Assembly: GCA_934309475.1 (NCBI GenBank)
Contig: CAKRDK010000001.1
Coordinates: 186,001 to 250,000 of the forward strand
Source of the DNA: an uncultured Roseburia sp.
GTDB taxonomy: Bacteria; Bacillota; Clostridia; Lachnospirales; Lachnospiraceae
DNA: 64,000 bases
Direction: 5' to 3'
Part shown: positions 27,295 to 40,548 of the stretch, piece by piece
Position numbering within the stretch: the first letter of the stretch is position 1
Layout: each line of letters begins with the position of its first letter
Notes under the pieces: model-generated
The model's input: only the letters and a program-made list of their open reading frames with translations
Databases searched by the model: none
Told to the model about the DNA's origin: nothing
Program-made: the position numbers and the translations under genes

Positions 27295-28032
27295 TTATTC
27301 TTCTACTGCTTCTTCTACATCTGCAGCAGCTTCTTCAAAAGCTTCTTCTGCTCCCTGATTTGCTTCGATAACAGCATCAGCCATTTTGGAAACGATTAAT
27401 TTAACTGCTCTGATTGCATCGTCGTTACCTGGGATTACATAATCTAATTCTTCTGGATCACAGTTTGTATCAGCGATACCGATTAATTTAATTCCTAAAG
27501 AATGAGCTTCCTGAATACAGATTCTCTCTTTCTTAGGATCTACAACAAAGATAGCATCTGGGATTTTCTTCATATCTTTGATACCACCAAGGTTCTTCTC
27601 TAATTTTTCCCACTCTTTTTTGAGAGCGATAACTTCTTTTTTAGGTAAAACATCAAATGTTCCATCTTCAGACATTGTCTCGATAGCTTTTAATCTTGCG
27701 ATACGGCTCTGGATTGTCTTGAAGTTTGTTAACATTCCACCTAACCATCTCTCGTTTACATAGTACATTCCGCAACGCTCTGCTTCTGTTTTGATAGCAT
27801 CCTGAGCCTGTTTCTTAGTACCAACGAAAAGAATTGTACCACCTTCAGCAGCGATATCAGATACTGCTTTGTAAGCTTCGTCTACTTTACCTACAGATTT
27901 CTGTAAGTCGATGATGTAGATACCATTTCTCTCTGTGTAGATGTATGGAGCCATTTTAGGATTCCATCTTCTTGTCTGATGTCCGAAATGAACACCTGCT
28001 TCTAATAACTGTTTCATTGAAATAACACTCAT
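27295..28032 (-). CDS. rpsB: 30S ribosomal protein S2
   Basis: A small-subunit head protein. [22 protein letters not shown] near the start, the [15 protein letters not shown] region, and the [14 protein letters not shown] segment identify S2; the acidic tail ([17 protein letters not shown]) is common in the family. The frame extends upstream, but the ATG at 28032 follows GGAGGT at ideal spacing and gives 245 residues. Transcribed from its own promoter with a structured leader, although it also lies directly downstream of the flagellar operon. Confidence 0.98.
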
Positions 28033-28181
28033 TTTTTCTACCTCCGTGGTTTTAAATTTCAAGAGCCGTGTCAAGCTCTTAAAGTTGCTTCCATATGCTT
28101 CATCCTCAAAGGCGACCAATGTGGCACCTGTCTTTAAGTCCGCATATGTGATTACTATATGTTCTGCTTCTCACAGAAACA
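28033..28181 (-). ncRNA. Probable structured leader of rpsB
   Basis: About 150 nt from the predicted start site to the S2 ribosome site. It contains CTTAAAG near the 5' half and the complementary CTTTAAG near the 3' half, a GGTGCC/GGTCGCC region, and the hairpin AAGAGC/GCTCTT just before the ribosome site. This layout suggests a ribosomal-protein-controlled leader. No terminator T-run is present, so any control would be at translation. I cannot confirm a known RNA family. Confidence 0.5.
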
Positions 28182-28222: not shown

Positions 28223-28840
28223 TTATTGTCTTGTTATTAATATCTGTGCAATTTCTTCAAAACTTGCCCCATATGGTATCTCGTAATTTCCGGGACTAAT
28301 CTGTTTGGCATATCCGTTATCACCGAGATATTTGCGGAGTTCTTCTGAATTATCAATCACTCTGTTATCCTGCAGTTCATCACAAATCTGACGGCAAACG
28401 GCTCCCGCATTCACCACCAACATATAACTCTGTGCGCCCGCTTCCTGATTCTCAGCCGGAGTCTCTTCCTGTGTCTGTGCATCTGCTTCCTGCCCGTCTG
28501 TAATCTGACCATCCGTGCTCTCGTCTGTTGCCTGTGCATCATCTGTTGTCTGTGTATCGTCTGCGGTCTGTCCCACATCCTGTGTATCTGCCTCTGCCGC
28601 AGTCGTATCTTCCTGCGTGTCCGCCTCCGTCGCAGCGGTTTCTTCCTGTGTATCCTGCATCTGGTCTTTCAGGCGGCTTCCCGATGCATCTTCTTCCATC
28701 ACCATACCAAGTGCTTCTGCCCGTTTGATGACATCTTCATCTGACATACTTTTTCCGCCGGTCGCATTACTGATTGTCAAGACAATAGTAGTTACTATGA
28801 TGCCGATGCCAAGTCCTCTTAAATAATACTTTAACTTCAC
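28223..28840 (-). CDS. Membrane protein with MltG-type LysM-like domain only
   Basis: A 205-residue protein: an N-terminal membrane anchor (about 6-24), a low-complexity extracellular spacer rich in T, Q, E, D and A (about 58-135, with imperfect copies of EADTQ), and a C-terminal domain (about 137-205) resembling the LysM-like module of MltG/YceG (VIDNSEELRKYL, SPGNYEIPYGASFEEIAQIL). The transglycosylase catalytic part of MltG is absent. It starts with GTG overlapping the previous stop by one base. It is the last gene of the fla/che operon before rpsB. It may bind peptidoglycan; this is inference. Confidence 0.75.
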   Translation of the reverse strand: MKLKYYLRGLGIGIIVTTIVLTISNATGGKSMSDEDVIKRAEALGMVMEEDASGSRLKDQMQDTQEETAATEADTQEDTTAAEADTQDVGQTADDTQTTDDAQATDESTDGQITDGQEADAQTQEETPAENQEAGAQSYMLVVNAGAVCRQICDELQDNRVIDNSEELRKYLGDNGYAKQISPGNYEIPYGASFEEIAQILITRQ

Positions 28841-29547
28841 TACTTTCTCTCTCCCTCAAACAATCCAACTACAAGTCGTACTTCTCCGATTCCAATGTCT
28901 AATTTCTGTGCAATCTGAACATCCGTGCATCCTTCTTTATGAAGCTTTAAAATATCCAGATTATGATTTCCATTATCTAGATCTGCCACCGCGGCATCCT
29001 TGGAAGGTTTCTCATTCTTTTCCTGCTTCTGTGGCTTTGCCACTGATGTCTTTGGCACTTTCGGTATCTCCCGTACCGGTTTTGCATCCGGATTCTTCGG
29101 TACCGCACTGCGAACCGTCTGGTATTCTAAGGATTCCTGTGCCTTTTTGGCATCTCCGATAAGATTTTGAAGTTTTCCTGCAAAATTCGTCAAATCTGTA
29201 TGCTTGTCATTTAACATACTATATAAGAACATAATCTCATTATGTGTCTTATTCATCGACTCGACAACCGTGTCCGAATACTCACTGATTGCCATAATTT
29301 TCTCATTTGTCTCTTTTTCTAATGCACGGTCTACTTTATCAATCGAGCCCTCTATCTGCAGCTCAATTGCCTCCTCAATCCGTGTATTTGCTTTCTGCAA
29401 GGAACGATCTACGATTTTATCTATCTCGTTTTCACTTAATTCACTGATTTTGTTTACTTCACTTGTTGAAAGCTTCTCTGTTACCATAAAGCTTCCAACC
29501 ATAAATACTACTCCAATCAATAACAGGACAATCTCTACTCCAGTCAT
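28840..29547 (-). CDS. DUF6115 membrane coiled-coil protein, SwrB-like
   Basis: A 235-residue protein with an N-terminal transmembrane helix (about 4-22), a long coiled coil (about 28-135; SELSENEIDKIVDRSLQ), a basic linker, and a C-terminal helix-turn-helix-like unit (about 197-232; HKEGCTDVQIAQKLDIGIGEVRLVV). B. subtilis SwrB, which activates flagellar basal-body assembly, has the same anchor/coil/C-terminal-helix layout and the same place between sigD and rpsB. I infer a SwrB-type role from layout and position; overall sequence similarity was not measured. Confidence 0.75.
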   Translation of the reverse strand: MTGVEIVLLLIGVVFMVGSFMVTEKLSTSEVNKISELSENEIDKIVDRSLQKANTRIEEAIELQIEGSIDKVDRALEKETNEKIMAISEYSDTVVESMNKTHNEIMFLYSMLNDKHTDLTNFAGKLQNLIGDAKKAQESLEYQTVRSAVPKNPDAKPVREIPKVPKTSVAKPQKQEKNEKPSKDAAVADLDNGNHNLDILKLHKEGCTDVQIAQKLDIGIGEVRLVVGLFEGERK

Positions 29548-29596: not shown

Positions 29597-29914
29597 TTAA
29601 ATTCTAATGTCTATACTTCCAGTACAATGTTTTTCCATCACCTTGTCTTCAACCTTCTCATGTTGCTTTTTCTTCTTCTGCCTGTTCTGCTGATACTGGT
29701 TGTTCCCCTTTTCCTTCGCATCATAACGATACTCCGGCTGGTTGCTGTCGTCAGCATGATGTACCTCTTTCGTCAGCTTCTGTTCTTCCTTCTTCACATC
29801 CTGCTGGATATTCTGCTGATCAATGTAGGGCTTCTCATCCTCCTGCTGTTTGATGGTTCCAACATCCTGCGTCCGCTGTATCATTCCACTCATGTCTATG
29901 GGTCTGATTGTCAT
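29597..29914 (-). CDS. Small conserved protein of the flagellar operon
   Basis: A 105-residue, hydrophilic, highly charged protein with no membrane segment. It starts MTIRPIDMSGMIQRTQDVGT, then has a Q/K/E-rich region (QQNIQQDVKKEEQKLTKEVHH) and a lysine-rich stretch near residue 80. I recall similar proteins of unknown function after fapA in clostridial flagellar operons, but I could not check this. GAAGGTG precedes the ATG. No function is assigned; it may be a partner of FapA or of the SwrB-like protein. Confidence 0.7.
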   Translation of the reverse strand: MTIRPIDMSGMIQRTQDVGTIKQQEDEKPYIDQQNIQQDVKKEEQKLTKEVHHADDSNQPEYRYDAKEKGNNQYQQNRQKKKKQHEKVEDKVMEKHCTGSIDIRI

Positions 29915-29943: not shown

Positions 29944-31545
29944 CTATAACGGTCTGCGTTCGATTTCCCCTTCTTCCCGCACATACTTACAATAGGTATC
30001 ATCTTTCGTCACGTTATAGCATAAGTCAGATATGTTGATTACCGTTCCGGTAAATACCTGCTTGTTTACTTTAACACAAGCATTGTTTTCAAGCAACATT
30101 TCTCCGTGTAATTCGTCAAATTCTTCATGTAAAATATCAAGCTGCTTTTTGCGCCCTTTGTAATCTAATGTCAATTTCTGGACAAACATAAGTCTGTCAG
30201 CAGACAGACGTTCTCCTTTTGCCATCTTTTCTCCGTACGTCAATAAGATGGTTTTTGATTTTGCTAAGTCTTCCGTCTGTTCTTTGATTAATTTGCGAAG
30301 CTGTCCGTAGCGCTCTTTTCGTTCCGGGTTAATTCCAACTTCAACTGTGGTTATGCCGCCCATCTCAGAACCGATGTTATCTGCCTCAATCAGATTACCA
30401 GCGCGAACCTTTCCACCATTAATCAGTCCCTTTTTTCCTGTTACCTTTATATAGCTGGCAGCATCCACCTTGCTGTGCATGATGGTCTCTGTCTCAACAT
30501 AACCGCCGGATGCAACTGTTGCATTTTCGATAAATTTTACAATGACACTCTTTCCAGCTCTCATGATACCCTTATTCATGCCATGAATACCGCGCTTTAC
30601 GATAATCTGCCCTTCTGCCACAAGTGTTGCATCCTCCACGATGCCTTCCACGATAATATCGCCGTTTGCTCTTACCGTAAAACCACCCTTGACATTACCT
30701 TTTACAAGCACACTGCCCGGATAATCAATATTTCCAACCGAATTGTCAACATCTGCCGGAACTTCAAAAACATCCGAAACAAACATTTTTCCATTCACTA
30801 ACTGGGCATGTCCCGTCACATCGGAGTACGCTTCCGTTCCATCCTCCGATACGGAAATATTATTCCCGTATTCAAGCTTTGCCGTTTTGACAGTACGCGG
30901 CTTTATCTCTTCTCCGTAAATATTAAATCCTGCCGCTCCGATATCTTCTTTGATTAATTTTGCAATCAGTTCTCCGGCTTTGACTGCACTGATTGTATTC
31001 AATTCCTTGTAATCCACGGTGCCGTCTTCGTTGTGTTTTGGTGCAAGATTCACATCCGTGTTAAATCTATACTCAATTCTTGCATCGCTTCCCTGCACCG
31101 GTTCTTTTCCTCTTGCAAGAATATAATCCTTACAATACTCCCGGTTTGAGAGGAACGCAAACATTGCATTCTGATCCATTCCGTATTTTATCTTTTCTGC
31201 CACTAAATCATTTATGATTTCCTGTGCATCCATATACTGTCCCTTTTTAGACGGCGGGTAAAAACGGCAGACTGCCTGCATCTTATCAGTCGACACCTGT
31301 ATCTCCATCATTTCATTGATTTCGATTCCATCCCAGTCCCCTAATAAAACGTCCGACTCTCCCTCAACTGCTGTAATCGCATGATTTAATTCCTTTAAAT
31401 CATAATGGGAAAAACGCTTTGCATCCAGATAACGGATTACTTCATTAATCTCGACTTTTTTCCCATCTTCTACTGGAGGAAAAATATGTACATACGCTTT
31501 TCCTTCTTTAAATTTCACTTGAAAATATCCATTTTTTGCAGCCAT
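29944..31545 (-). CDS. fapA: FapA family protein (DUF342)
   Basis: A 533-residue protein with an N-terminal alpha/beta part (about 1-250) and a C-terminal region of bactofilin-like beta-helix rungs (about 270-400: SVLVKGNVKGGFTVRANG, DIIVEGIVEDATLVAEG, GGKVRAGNLIEADNIG) followed by a helical tail. FapA proteins help place or assemble polar flagella in other bacteria. It sits directly downstream of sigma-28, with GGGGAGG ahead of its ATG. Its exact role in Firmicutes is not settled. Confidence 0.85.
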   Translation of the reverse strand: MAAKNGYFQVKFKEGKAYVHIFPPVEDGKKVEINEVIRYLDAKRFSHYDLKELNHAITAVEGESDVLLGDWDGIEINEMMEIQVSTDKMQAVCRFYPPSKKGQYMDAQEIINDLVAEKIKYGMDQNAMFAFLSNREYCKDYILARGKEPVQGSDARIEYRFNTDVNLAPKHNEDGTVDYKELNTISAVKAGELIAKLIKEDIGAAGFNIYGEEIKPRTVKTAKLEYGNNISVSEDGTEAYSDVTGHAQLVNGKMFVSDVFEVPADVDNSVGNIDYPGSVLVKGNVKGGFTVRANGDIIVEGIVEDATLVAEGQIIVKRGIHGMNKGIMRAGKSVIVKFIENATVASGGYVETETIMHSKVDAASYIKVTGKKGLINGGKVRAGNLIEADNIGSEMGGITTVEVGINPERKERYGQLRKLIKEQTEDLAKSKTILLTYGEKMAKGERLSADRLMFVQKLTLDYKGRKKQLDILHEEFDELHGEMLLENNACVKVNKQVFTGTVINISDLCYNVTKDDTYCKYVREEGEIERRPL

Positions 31546-31572: not shown

Positions 31573-32334
31573 CTATAACATAATATCTAAATATTTTCCC
31601 ATTTTGCCACGCATTTTCTGTAATGCCTTCGTGTGCAGCTGTGAAACCCTCGATTCTGACACCTCTAAAATCTGACTGATTTCTTTTAGTGTCAAATCTT
31701 CATAGTAATATAATAAAATAACTTTTTTCTCTTTTTCTGTCAGCAATTCTAATGCATCCTGCAAAACTTCCTTCAACTCATTTTCCTGAACCAAATCCTC
31801 AGGCTGTATAAAATGAGAATTCTGTCTTGCATCCATAACCGGTTCGCTTCCCTGCTCTAAAAACTCATTCAGAGAAACAACATTCGTCACCTTAAGCTGC
31901 GACTGCCATATGCTTAACTCACCCTCGGAAAGTCCTAATTCATCGGCAATTTCCTCATCAAGTGCATTTTTCCCGGTACGCATCTCAATCTGCTTGATTG
32001 CTTCATCAATTTTCTTTTGTTTTTGACGTACTGTTCTTGGAATCCAATCCATTTTACGAATCTGGTCTAGAATCGCGCCTCTTATTCGCAAACTTGCATA
32101 AGTCTCAAACTTAACATCCTTGTTTAAATCAAATTTATCAATTGCATCTATCAGGCCAAATATGCCATAGCTTACCAAATCATCGTACTCTACGTTATAA
32201 CCTAGATACATGCTGAGCCTTCCTGCTACTACTTTTACAAGCTGCGCATATTCTAAAATTATCTTTTCTCTTAGTTCTGGCGACGGATTTTTGCGATATG
32301 ATTCCCAAAGCATTTCTCTTTCTTCTGCTCTCAT
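31573..32334 (-). CDS. fliA: Flagellar RNA polymerase sigma-28 factor (SigD/FliA)
   Basis: A 253-residue group 3 sigma factor directing late flagellar and chemotaxis genes. Region 2 (DDLVSYGIFGLIDAIDKFD...FETYASLRIRG), the conserved WIPRTVRQK of region 3, and region 4 helix-turn-helix (TLKEISQILEVSESRVSQLHTKAL) are all present. GGGGG precedes the ATG. It lies downstream of cheD, as sigD does in B. subtilis. Its partner anti-sigma factor FlgM is not in this window. Confidence 0.97.
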   Translation of the reverse strand: MRAEEREMLWESYRKNPSPELREKIILEYAQLVKVVAGRLSMYLGYNVEYDDLVSYGIFGLIDAIDKFDLNKDVKFETYASLRIRGAILDQIRKMDWIPRTVRQKQKKIDEAIKQIEMRTGKNALDEEIADELGLSEGELSIWQSQLKVTNVVSLNEFLEQGSEPVMDARQNSHFIQPEDLVQENELKEVLQDALELLTEKEKKVILLYYYEDLTLKEISQILEVSESRVSQLHTKALQKMRGKMGKYLDIML

Positions 32335-32364: not shown

Positions 32365-32649
32365 TTATTCTTTCTCGTCCCCGTCAGACTCTTCCTGTTT
32401 GGTTTCTTCCATTTCTTCTTCGTCTGAAATTTCTTCTGTTTTTTCCGGCTCTTCTGTTTTATCTGCCATCTTCTGTATGTTACGTTCTAATACAATCCGT
32501 GCAACCTGACCCAGCAGCAAAAAAGCTACCATCGTAATCAGTACCGTTCTGACGAACGTTTCCATATCCATATGTTGGATAATTCCCAACACACATGCGA
32601 CAAATCCTGCCGTCAACATGATAATTACAGGTATTGGTTTTGTTTTCAT
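32365..32649 (-). CDS. Small membrane protein of unknown function
   Basis: A 94-residue protein with two hydrophobic segments (about 7-23 and 32-50) joined by a short loop (QHMDMETFVR), then a strongly acidic cytoplasmic tail rich in E and D. AAGGGG precedes the ATG. It lies between cheD and sigma-28, where B. subtilis has no gene. I do not recognise it. The acidic tail could be a binding region for a basic partner, which is only a guess. Confidence 0.7.
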   Translation of the reverse strand: MKTKPIPVIIMLTAGFVACVLGIIQHMDMETFVRTVLITMVAFLLLGQVARIVLERNIQKMADKTEEPEKTEEISDEEEMEETKQEESDGDEKE

Positions 32650-38369: not shown

Positions 38370-39248
38370 TTAACTTCTGCGAGCGATAAAATAGGAAAAT
38401 AACTGTGCAACTCCCCATTTCATCCGCACCTCTTTATGCTCATGATGAATCAAATTAGATGCTAACACTTCAAAAGATTTTGCTGACTTTGAATTCGGAG
38501 CACTCATCGACACAATTTTCTGCTGTCTGACTGCCATCTCTAGTTCACTATCCTGTGGAATCATCCCAAGATATTCGATGTCTCCCTGTAAAAACTGGAG
38601 TACCACCGACTCTAATTTTTTAAAAACTGCCTGCGCTTCTTCTAAGGAAGACGCCTTATTGGCTACAATTTTTAACTGTGTTTCATCCTTTTTGAAATTC
38701 GGATTCGCATATAACACTTTTAACAGAGAATAGGCATCTGTCAGAGAACTCGGATCCGGTGTCGTGACTACTAACACTTCCGGACTTGCCAGGACGAATT
38801 CTAATACACTGTCCGAAATTCCGGCTCCCGTATCTACGATAATAACATCCGCCAAATCATTCAGCTCATTCAGGCACTTGATGAGATATACAATCTGTCC
38901 CTTGGTCAGATTCTCCATGCCGGAGATTCCAGAACCTCCGGAAATAAATCCAATTTCCATCGGTCCTTCCGTAATGATATCGCGGATTGTCTTCTCTCCA
39001 TAAATCAGGTCACTCAGATTAAATTTTGGAATTGCGCCAAACATAACCTCCACGTTTGCCAGACCAAAATCTGCATCAAAAATAATAACACGCATCCCCA
39101 TCTTACGAAACTGAACAGCTAAATTCACTGCTGTATTCGATTTACCGACACCGCCTTTTCCACTTGTAATTGTGATAATTCTAGCATTCGGCTTAGCTTC
39201 CAGATTCTGCTTTTTAATTACATTGCGCAAAGCTTCTGCCTGATCCAT
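38370..39248 (-). CDS. flhG: Flagellar number regulator FlhG (MinD-like ATPase)
   Basis: Controls flagellar number and position together with FlhF. The N-terminus DQAEALR (residues 2-8) is the FlhF-activating motif, followed by the deviant Walker A SGKGGVGKS (about 29-37), the VDTGAGIS switch region and a C-terminal amphipathic membrane-targeting tail. It follows flhF by 34 bp. Confidence 0.95.
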   Translation of the reverse strand: MDQAEALRNVIKKQNLEAKPNARIITITSGKGGVGKSNTAVNLAVQFRKMGMRVIIFDADFGLANVEVMFGAIPKFNLSDLIYGEKTIRDIITEGPMEIGFISGGSGISGMENLTKGQIVYLIKCLNELNDLADVIIVDTGAGISDSVLEFVLASPEVLVVTTPDPSSLTDAYSLLKVLYANPNFKKDETQLKIVANKASSLEEAQAVFKKLESVVLQFLQGDIEYLGMIPQDSELEMAVRQQKIVSMSAPNSKSAKSFEVLASNLIHHEHKEVRMKWGVAQLFSYFIARRS

Positions 39249-39282: not shown

Positions 39283-40548
39283 TTATTTTCTTCCACTCAA
39301 AAGTTTCTTTACAATTTTTTGTGTGTTAAAAATCTCAATATCATCCGGTACATTCTGTCCAATTGCCACATAAGAAAGCGGTGCATCCGAATATAACTTT
39401 ATATTCATAATATTTCCATAGCAGGTTGTCTCATCCAGCTTCGTAAATACAAGTTTATACTCTGCAATCTGCTTATAAATATCCACGATGTCCAAAAGAT
39501 CTCTGTATTTTGTGGTCGCACTTAATACAAGATATACTTCCTTCTGATAAGAAGCATCCAGACCTGCAATCAGATTCTTCATGTCCTCACATTGTTTTGC
39601 ATTTTTGTGGGAGAATCCGGCTGTGTCGACAAACACCAAATCATAATTTGAAACCTTCGAAACCATCTCATTTAAATCATTTGCGGAATAAATAATATTC
39701 ATCGGTGCATCTAAAATGTTCGCATAGGTACGGAGCTGCTCTGTCGCTGCAATCCTGTAGGTATCTGCCGATAAGAACGCTACATTTTTACCATGTTCTA
39801 CTTTATATTTTGATGCAATTTTTGCAATCGTGGTTGTCTTTCCCACTCCTGTCGGTCCGATAAAGAAAATAACTCTCGGTTTTTTGCCGTTTGTCTCGAT
39901 TGTGCTAGGCTGTCCTAATTTCAGAATCATCTTCTGATAAACGGAAGATAAAATGTAATCCACACTATTTCCGCTATGCATCACTTTCTCAATCTCGTCC
40001 ATAATCTGGTTTACATATTTTTCATCAACTTCATTATCAAGAAGTGTTCGATACAACATCTTAATAAACCCAAAGCCTTCTGATCCAGCCTGTGATGCTT
40101 CTTCCTTTATCTCCTTCTTCTCTGCTTTTTCTTCAACACCTAACTGCTTTTCCAGGATATTTGACAAACTCGCAAGGCGCTCCTCTAACCCGATGTTCGC
40201 CTGTTCACGCTGTGTCATGGTTCTCTCCGGCATTACAGATTTCACTTCCCTTTTCTCAGGCATCTCAACTTTTTCACGCTGTACCTGTGGAATCTTAATC
40301 TGCTCATCCGCAGCTAAATTAATGCTGTCTGCCGGTTTCTGCGGGGCATTGTTTGTCATTGCACTGCTGAACTGTTCCTTTTCCTCAACAGCCGCTGTCA
40401 CTTCATACGTAGAATCCTTAAACACTTTCAGCATTCCTTTCGGTTTAATCTCCTTTACGTTCATGACTACCGCATTAACACCAAGCTCACTTTTCGCTTT
40501 CGCAATCGCTTCTTCTTTTGTCTTTCCCTGGAATTTCTTTATCGTCAT
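39283..40548 (-). CDS. flhF: Flagellar SRP-type GTPase FlhF
   Basis: A 421-residue GTPase that marks sites of new flagella. A basic N-terminal part (B domain), a long Q/E/P-rich linker (about 60-150), then the N and G domains with Walker A GPTGVGKTTT (231-240), the VFVDTAGFS switch region and TKLDET. It overlaps the end of flhA by one base (TAATG), a sign of coupling. Confidence 0.96.
   Translation of the reverse strand: MTIKKFQGKTKEEAIAKAKSELGVNAVVMNVKEIKPKGMLKVFKDSTYEVTAAVEEKEQFSSAMTNNAPQKPADSINLAADEQIKIPQVQREKVEMPEKREVKSVMPERTMTQREQANIGLEERLASLSNILEKQLGVEEKAEKKEIKEEASQAGSEGFGFIKMLYRTLLDNEVDEKYVNQIMDEIEKVMHSGNSVDYILSSVYQKMILKLGQPSTIETNGKKPRVIFFIGPTGVGKTTTIAKIASKYKVEHGKNVAFLSADTYRIAATEQLRTYANILDAPMNIIYSANDLNEMVSKVSNYDLVFVDTAGFSHKNAKQCEDMKNLIAGLDASYQKEVYLVLSATTKYRDLLDIVDIYKQIAEYKLVFTKLDETTCYGNIMNIKLYSDAPLSYVAIGQNVPDDIEIFNTQKIVKKLLSGRK

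Follow-up and report, generated by a model that had tools for sequence, protein, structure and literature searches.

A DUF6115 gene at the end of a Roseburia flagellar gene group: probable membership in the SwrB family and apparent relationship to the FlhF-binding protein FipA

Background

What is the function of the gene that lies between sigD and rpsB where the fla/che gene group of a Roseburia genome ends, and with which part of the flagellar base does its product work? The question is raised by a stretch of 64,000 nucleotides from an uncultured Roseburia sp. (assembly GCA_934309475.1, contig CAKRDK010000001.1, positions 186,001 to 250,000), here called the window. A preliminary description took this gene, which belongs to the family DUF6115, for a likely counterpart of swrB; this was thought to give a function to a DUF family, with FliF and FliG as the suggested partners.

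In Bacillus subtilis, the last fla/che gene encodes SwrB (YlxL), a protein that spans the membrane once (PMC4526659). Bacillus basal bodies without SwrB often fail to proceed to hooks, and swrB suppressors involve FliP and FliG (PMC4526659). Its conservation has been said to be limited to the genus Bacillus (PMC4526659). The papers cited here by accession were available in part, and what we take from them is limited to those parts.

The gene and its neighborhood

The placement of the gene at positions 28840 to 29547 proved correct, with the minus strand as the coding strand. The ORF reads from 29547 to 28840 and encodes 235 amino acids, and the plus strand is full of stops over the same positions. 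A Pfam search places the product in DUF6115 well above the gathering cut-off (PF19610, E 1.4e-38, 132.7 bits against 27), and the C-terminal motif noted earlier, EGCTDVQIAQKLDIGIGEV, is found near its C-terminus.

The minus-strand fla/che group, with gene names taken from sequence, runs from flgB through flhF, flhG, and the che genes to sigD, and is followed by fapA, a 105-aa ORF, the DUF6115 gene, a YceG-like ORF, and rpsB-tsf (Table 1). The DUF6115 gene is the third ORF past sigD, at the end of the group. Its location in the sigD-to-rpsB interval is therefore borne out, with fapA, the 105-aa ORF, and the YceG-like ORF inside the same interval. The DUF6115 gene and the YceG-like gene overlap by one base, with which the stop codon of the former ends and the latter begins. 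The true start of rpsB is probably inside the ORF given in the table.

Table 1. Features of the DUF6115 locus and predicted segments of its product (window positions)
Feature	Position	Strand	Basis
rpsB, closes interval	27295..28119	-	named from sequence; order as in B. velezensis
YceG/MltG-like gene, partial similarity	28223..28840	-	PF02618 25.7 bits, below cut-off 32.4
DUF6115 / SwrB-family gene (probable), 235 aa	28840..29547	-	ORF, PF19610, synteny
Three-helix HTH-like C-terminal tail, residues 193-234	28846..28971	-	AlphaFold2, conservation
Variable linker, residues 148-192	28972..29106	-	low conservation, low pLDDT
Long helix, residues 28-147	29107..29466	-	AlphaFold2, block pLDDT 96-98 over residues 41-140
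Most conserved block, residues 76-120	29188..29322	-	mean fraction identical to window protein 0.84-0.88, 60 rows
Predicted N-terminal helix, residues 2-25	29473..29544	-	AlphaFold2; hydrophobic sequence
105-aa ORF, upstream of DUF6115 gene	29597..29914	-	homologue scored in 57/59 loci
fapA	29944..31545	-	PF03961, PF20250
sigD (FliA/WhiG sigma factor)	31573..32334	-	TIGR02479 262.7 bits, cut-off 189.6
flhG	38370..39248	-	named from sequence and position; order as in B. velezensis
flhF, proposed partner	39283..40548	-	named from sequence and position; order as in B. velezensis

We identified 59 relatives of the gene by genome scan, with 37-59% identity over the best segment and record titles naming Roseburia, Agathobacter, Eubacterium, Lachnospiraceae, and similar clostridia. 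The YceG-like gene is directly behind the DUF6115 gene in all 59 loci, and sigD is upstream in 57; in the two exceptions, L029 and L053, the locus begins 283 and 968 bases away from the gene. Downstream, rpsB was seen in 40 of the 59, while some of the remaining 19 end shortly after the gene and others go on with different genes. Since this order is kept across the 59 related loci, the position of the DUF6115 gene is not a matter of chance.

A broader sample consisted of twenty 20-kb clostridial loci, hand-picked from 144 hit genomes (16 high-scoring and 4 lower). All 20 have sigD and flhG upstream, 19 have flhF, and 12 have rpsB downstream. Where the che genes are elsewhere, the order shrinks to flhF-flhG-x-sigD-DUF6115 (L134, L138, and L141).

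The YceG-like ORF has a hydrophobic N-terminus and an acidic, repetitive middle, and it weakly resembles YceG/MltG in a C-terminal piece. The 105-aa ORF has conserved ends, approximately VDMQVLLPR near the start and IDLRI at the very end, with a charged and variable middle; the window copy matched no Pfam or NCBIfam family above cut-off. Its homologue is missing from L029, which is cut, and from L048 among the 59 loci. The strict end pattern occurred in 9 of 41 loci (L135, L144, L147, L148, L159, L161, L162, L168, and L171), and ORFs of similar size occupy the position between sigD/fapA and DUF6115 in many others. No small ORF of this type is present beside swrB of B. velezensis. Between cheD and sigD, a 94-aa minus-strand ORF (32365-32649) with two hydrophobic stretches and an acidic tail was scored in 56 of the 59 loci; it has weak similarity to a FliF model (17.8 bits, cut-off 129.75).

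Predicted architecture

The AlphaFold2 model of the window protein (mean pLDDT 85.8, pTM 0.43) has a hydrophobic N-terminal helix leading into a long helix, then a mostly disordered linker, with pLDDT under 50 in residues 151-156, 158-160, and 172-191, and finally a compact tail. By comparison with SwrB and FipA, the N-terminal helix is presumably a membrane anchor, and the long helix is expected to form a coiled coil. The tail consists of helices at residues 193-204, 209-216, and 220-234, with block pLDDT of 96-97 over residues 201-230. In 64 aligned rows, G206 and E222 are invariant, and I212, A213, G219, and L225 are kept in 90% or more. Together G206, E222, and L225 form the pattern G-x15-E-x2-L, which is common to FipA.

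The block most conserved among the 59 relatives, residues 76-120, lies within the long helix and is peculiar to the subfamily of the window protein. An HMM of residues 66-130 clearly matched 4 of the 26 proteins in our clostridial set (the window protein and those of L060, L061, and L062) and clearly matched no SwrB or FipA.

Searches for relatives of solved structure returned HTH proteins, coiled-coil proteins, and a repetitive "CAP repeat" chain, with no flagellar relative among them. The E-value of the match to the "CAP repeat" chain (1e-12) is a sum over five stretches of 13-17 bits. A Foldseek search with the window model gave no match at E<=0.001. The C-terminal ends of the window protein and of the ORF at 23560-24027 of L150 weakly match the C-terminus of the NCBIfam model SpiroCoCo_C (17.3 and 19.5 bits, cut-off 125). 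On this sequence match a spirochaete relative is possible; we found no literature on the name SpiroCoCo.

Relationship to SwrB

The preliminary description had suggested a profile-profile comparison of DUF6115 with SwrB, and this comparison was positive. We assembled 32 SwrB proteins after filters on length, on the letters GKTEI, and on 92% likeness. In hhalign, this set matched 26 clostridial DUF6115 proteins, including that of the window, at 98.3% (E 1.3e-14), and matched the subfamily of the window protein (60 rows) at 91.8% (E 7e-7). The SigD control reached 1.4%. A single BLASTP comparison of the window protein with B. subtilis SwrB (P0102) aligned only the tail, with 10 of 29 residues identical (E 4e-4).

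Six Bacillaceae proteins were scored against the DUF6115 cut-off of 27 bits with the copy of Pfam used here. In B. velezensis, the ORF between sigD and rpsB, annotated as hypothetical, scores 35.0 bits; of the 112 relatives listed for it, most carry PF19610 and many bear the name swarming motility protein SwrB. Two of the six Bacillaceae proteins tested fall below the cut-off, namely B. subtilis SwrB (26.1 bits) and a B. pumilus SwrB (25.7 bits), and three other relatives exceed it (29.3, 30.7, and 35.2 bits). In Thermomicrobium and Rossellomorea, the ORF that comes first after sigD had no DUF6115 match at E<=1. A tail search from the L088 protein returned 27 proteins, of which 26 have a precomputed PF19610 assignment and none is named SwrB.

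The shared architecture claimed for the two proteins, an N-terminal helix, a long helix, and a helical C-terminal tail, is matched in the AlphaFold2 models, of which that of SwrB is the less confident (mean pLDDT 74.8, pTM 0.25). The three tail helices of SwrB, at residues 125-134, 139-145, and 150-166, agree with those of the window protein and also carry G-x15-E-x2-L, with G136, E152, and L155 (P0102 numbering) as its residues. Like the window protein, SwrB is encoded between sigD and rpsB and fits the DUF6115 profile. There are differences as well. B. subtilis SwrB has 167 amino acids, whereas the window protein has 235; the tail ends in SGKTEIELFLKF in SwrB and in IGIGEVRLVVGLF in the window protein; and the sigD-rpsB interval of B. 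velezensis lacks fapA, the 105-aa ORF, and the YceG-like gene, all three of which are in the window interval. SwrB lacks block 76-120 and cannot account for it, so a shift in function is possible.

Because position, architecture, and profile point the same way, we assign the window protein to the SwrB family, and we consider it likely that the gene is the Lachnospiraceae member of this family (DUF6115) with the role of SwrB. With profile match, gene order, and predicted fold in agreement, the SwrB-counterpart reading is supported. The idea that it would give a function to a DUF needs qualification, since the family is not wholly without a studied member: many entries named SwrB already carry PF19610, and the identity of DUF6115 with SwrB is already implicit in databases. 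Judged by these sequences, the description "conserved only in Bacillus" is too narrow, DUF6115 already containing SwrB. We found no literature on DUF6115 and no experiment on a clostridial member, although the query by clostridial names was swamped by papers without SwrB and is not a test of absence.

Two further flagellar proteins have been set beside SwrB. FlgW of the Campylobacterota carries the label FlgW/SwrB (PMC9321776), and is compared here by label rather than sequence. Fluke of Salmonella, set beside SwrB by description, is a membrane-anchored regulator of flagellar secretion (PMC13344023). The anchor of Fluke is C-terminal, and SwrB instead activates FliP for early export (PMC13344023).

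Relationship to FipA

FipA contacts FlhF through its DUF2802 domain (PMC11620751). It cannot function without its N-terminal membrane helix, and it also has a coiled region (PMC11620751). Three of its residues, G110, E126, and L129, are invariant (PMC11620751); by spacing they correspond to G206, E222, and L225 of the window protein. FipA of Vibrio, Pseudomonas, and Shewanella resembles what is predicted for the window protein in its N-terminal membrane helix and coiled region, and its C-terminal domain has the same motif spacing. The two also agree in gene position, fipA lying downstream of the flhA-flhF-flhG-fliA-che operon (PMC11620751), and like DUF6115, FipA occurs mainly with flhF. FipA differs in being shorter (163 amino acids in V. 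parahaemolyticus, against 235; PMC11620751), in having polar flagellates as hosts, and in having cheW upstream of its gene in 24 of 30 gammaproteobacterial loci.

Our FipA set comprised proteins from 27 of 30 gammaproteobacterial loci, L115 and ORFs without [GE]-x15-E-x2-L or longer than 200 amino acids being left out; before filtering, the motif was present in 28 of the 30. The clostridial DUF6115 profile matched this DUF2802 profile at 96.7% (E 3.4e-10), aligned from membrane helix to tail. As controls, 24 other gene families from the same loci reached at most 9.0% against either profile, the reversed profile 0.6%, and 30 column shuffles at most 0.6%. The SigD control reached 14.3% in the DUF6115-DUF2802 comparison, and one control gene family reached 11.6% against SwrB. 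The direct matches are weak, at 36.5% for SwrB with FipA and 21.4% for the window subfamily with FipA, and the link therefore runs through other clostridial members.

The Pfam DUF2802 model scores 21 of the 26 clostridial DUF6115 proteins at E<=0.1, and two database proteins pass both Pfam cut-offs over overlapping residues: P0008, with 34.5 bits for DUF2802 and 37.3 for DUF6115, and P0034, with 42.5 and 27.4. DUF2802 (PF10975) is not among the Pfam matches of the window protein at E<=1. Among 3,918 ORFs at E<1e-4, an HMM built from the 27 gammaproteobacterial proteins found all 30 gammaproteobacterial genes, 27 of which had gone into it, together with the DUF6115 gene in 15 of the 20 long clostridial loci and in 19 of the 30 short ones. 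The two clostridial sets overlap (L060-L089 with L130-L149). The HMM found none in the 59 loci of the window subfamily and no other gene. Conversely, the clostridial HMM matched 3 of the 30 gammaproteobacterial genes under the same conditions.

The pattern G-x15-E-x2-L occurs in 24 of 26 clostridial, 58 of 60 window-subfamily, 32 of 32 SwrB, and 27 of 27 FipA proteins, the last two counts being partly circular, as both sets were filtered partly on motif letters. We rejected the spacing as evidence by itself, since 176 of 2,172 ORF tails of the loci, family members included, hold the pattern. The motif carries weight only because of its fixed place in the aligned tail, where G206 and E222 are invariant. 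A general HTH similarity was rejected as the whole explanation, given the low values for SigD and other families and the specificity of the FipA HMM.

We conclude that DUF6115 appears, on profile evidence, to be homologous to the FlhF-binding DUF2802 domain of FipA. The preliminary description, right about SwrB, had missed this relationship, which adds FlhF as a candidate partner beside FliF and FliG. FipA homologues have been described as absent from Bacillus (PMC11620751). The passages of the literature that we consulted contain no statement that unites SwrB/DUF6115 with FipA. Priority is nevertheless uncertain: the file of PMC11620751 contains the phrase "between FipA and SwrB", which may belong to review correspondence, and its readable main text has no mention of SwrB.

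Occurrence with flhF

We searched 249 clostridial genomes for PF19610 at E<=0.001. A genome was counted as having flhF by the gap that the best E-values show between 1e-26 and 1e-40; this gave 195 genomes, 194 of them above the profile cut-off. Among genomes with flhA, a PF19610 match was found in 140 of 194 with flhF and in 2 of 15 without it (Fisher 9e-6, kinship and genome incompleteness ignored). Genomes with neither flhA nor flhF had a match in 2 of 39 cases, and the one genome with flhF alone had none. At the Pfam cut-off, the counts with flhA were 110 of 194 and 2 of 15 (Fisher 0.002, kinship ignored). A few of the E<=0.001 matches, in long and unlike frames (for example in G085 and G227), are probably false. 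Two of 14 named control genomes, those of B. subtilis and Thermotoga maritima, matched at E<=0.001, and one of these two matches exceeded the cut-off. DUF6115 follows flhF more than it follows flagella as such. DUF2802 behaves similarly in 114 gammaproteobacteria, being present in 44 of 53 with flhF and 5 of the 61 others. One gammaproteobacterium (G284) has DUF2802 at 81 bits and no FlhF above cut-off. This conflicts with the published claim that FipA is found only where FlhF is present, and may be a limit of the assembly or of the model.

No PF19610 match at E<=0.001 was found in 54 of the 194 genomes with flhA and flhF, and the protein is therefore not needed everywhere. When 20 genomes of the flhF-containing, PF19610-lacking type were inspected with a custom HMM, 9 had a divergent copy behind sigD and no copy was found in 11. 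A looser profile, A1, was run at E<=0.001 on 80 genomes. It matched 23 of 55 with flhF and without PF19610 (16 of the 23 within 12 kb of flhF), 6 of 15 without flhF (four of these matches being marginal or lying in unlike frames), and one of the 10 non-flagellated genomes.

Four genomes are exceptions to the association with flhF. In G110, flhA is at a contig edge, and flhF may have been missed in assembly; a 4.8-kb contig of G194 carries sigD-x-DUF6115-x-rpsB; and the PF19610 match of G245 is weak. G199 (loci L176 and L178) is a real exception. It has an intact DUF6115 gene between a codY-like gene and rpsB, while its flagellar genes are on another contig in the order flhB-flhA-sigD, flhA being followed directly by sigD. 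No flhG was seen in the 19.9 kb read, and no FlhF match rose above the SRP-GTPase background in the genome. It is as if the operon had moved and left DUF6115 behind.

Proposed mechanism and alternatives

As the likely Lachnospiraceae member of the SwrB family, the window protein would sit in the membrane by its N-terminal helix, and its long helix would pair with others as a coiled coil and carry the HTH-like tail, a module for protein docking rather than DNA binding. The tail would contact FlhF and/or the young MS/C-ring, and this contact would lead to completion of the base and activate the type III export gate of the flagellum, the part that SwrB plays in Bacillus. By analogy, then, we infer a membrane-tethered rod with a docking tail that may act on the young base. 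FlhF is the prime candidate partner because DUF6115 appears homologous to the FlhF-binding domain of FipA; homology and co-occurrence suggest, tentatively, that the family of the window protein docks FlhF. In a stronger form of this reading, which we regard as a serious possibility short of probable, SwrB/DUF6115 and FipA/DUF2802 would be one family whose tail recruits FlhF to the membrane or holds it there, the effect of SwrB on basal bodies being exerted through FlhF.

Docking of FlhF is favored by the 96.7% profile match with its low controls and shuffles, by the selectivity of the FipA HMM in clostridial loci, by the two proteins that satisfy both Pfam models, and by the bias of both families toward flhF-containing genomes. 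The V. parahaemolyticus mutants point the same way, as G110 and L129 of FipA are needed for FlhF binding (PMC11620751). Against it stand the weak direct matches of FipA to SwrB and to the window subfamily, the failure of the FipA HMM in all loci of that subfamily, the A1 matches in genomes without flhF, the retention of DUF6115 in G199, and the disregard of kinship and incomplete genomes in the co-occurrence counts. Moreover, the E126A variant of FipA, altered at a position that is invariant in DUF6115, still binds FlhF (PMC11620751), and the mobility of B. subtilis basal bodies increases on loss of swrB and not significantly on loss of flhF (PMC12153297).

The protein could instead be an export-gate helper that acts only on the conformation of FliG, FliF, or FliP, its likeness to FipA being old and no longer about FlhF; we take this possibility seriously as well and rate it slightly lower. 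SwrB genetics, which indicate FliP and FliG (PMC4526659), the DUF6115 gene of G199 without flhF, and the difference between swrB and flhF mutants (PMC12153297) all agree with such a helper. The bias of DUF6115 toward flhF-containing genomes, and the sharing of motif positions that FipA requires for FlhF binding (PMC11620751), do not.

It is improbable that the protein is a membrane-bound transcription regulator whose HTH tail binds DNA, for example in tuning sigD-dependent genes. The tail fold does resemble LuxR/NarL-type DNA-binding domains, which make up most of the best Foldseek matches (best E 0.18, none significant), and there are weak matches to HTH families. The PDB alignments listed, however, span 33-60 columns of a common fold, the last helix has an invariant glutamate and few basic residues, and the related domain of FipA binds protein (PMC11620751). 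A predicted membrane anchor also sets the window protein apart from LuxR/NarL-type domains. Least probable of all is a coiled-coil membrane protein that resembles SwrB by convergence, which would fit the low direct identity and a middle block (76-120) not common to SwrB, and which the profile match, Pfam scores, gene position, and tail all oppose.

Significance

Should docking of FlhF be correct, SwrB, DUF6115, and FipA may represent one ancient family of membrane-tethered FlhF receptors in both peritrichous and polar flagellates, a view that we offer tentatively. A Bacillus swarming factor and a gammaproteobacterial polarity factor would then be one and the same component, which keeps FlhF at the membrane and licenses the base, and SwrB would be the FlhF partner that is missing in Bacillus. 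According to the part of a 2025 review available to us, the spatial cues and regulatory partners of FlhF/FlhG in peritrichous B. subtilis are unclear (PMC12826062); with one family, SwrB would be a concrete candidate for such a partner. G199 offers a natural test of an FlhF-independent function. If there is one family and it is common in clostridia, the FipA residues would indicate which residues of SwrB to change, and the role of SwrB in export activation would in turn become a hypothesis for FipA.
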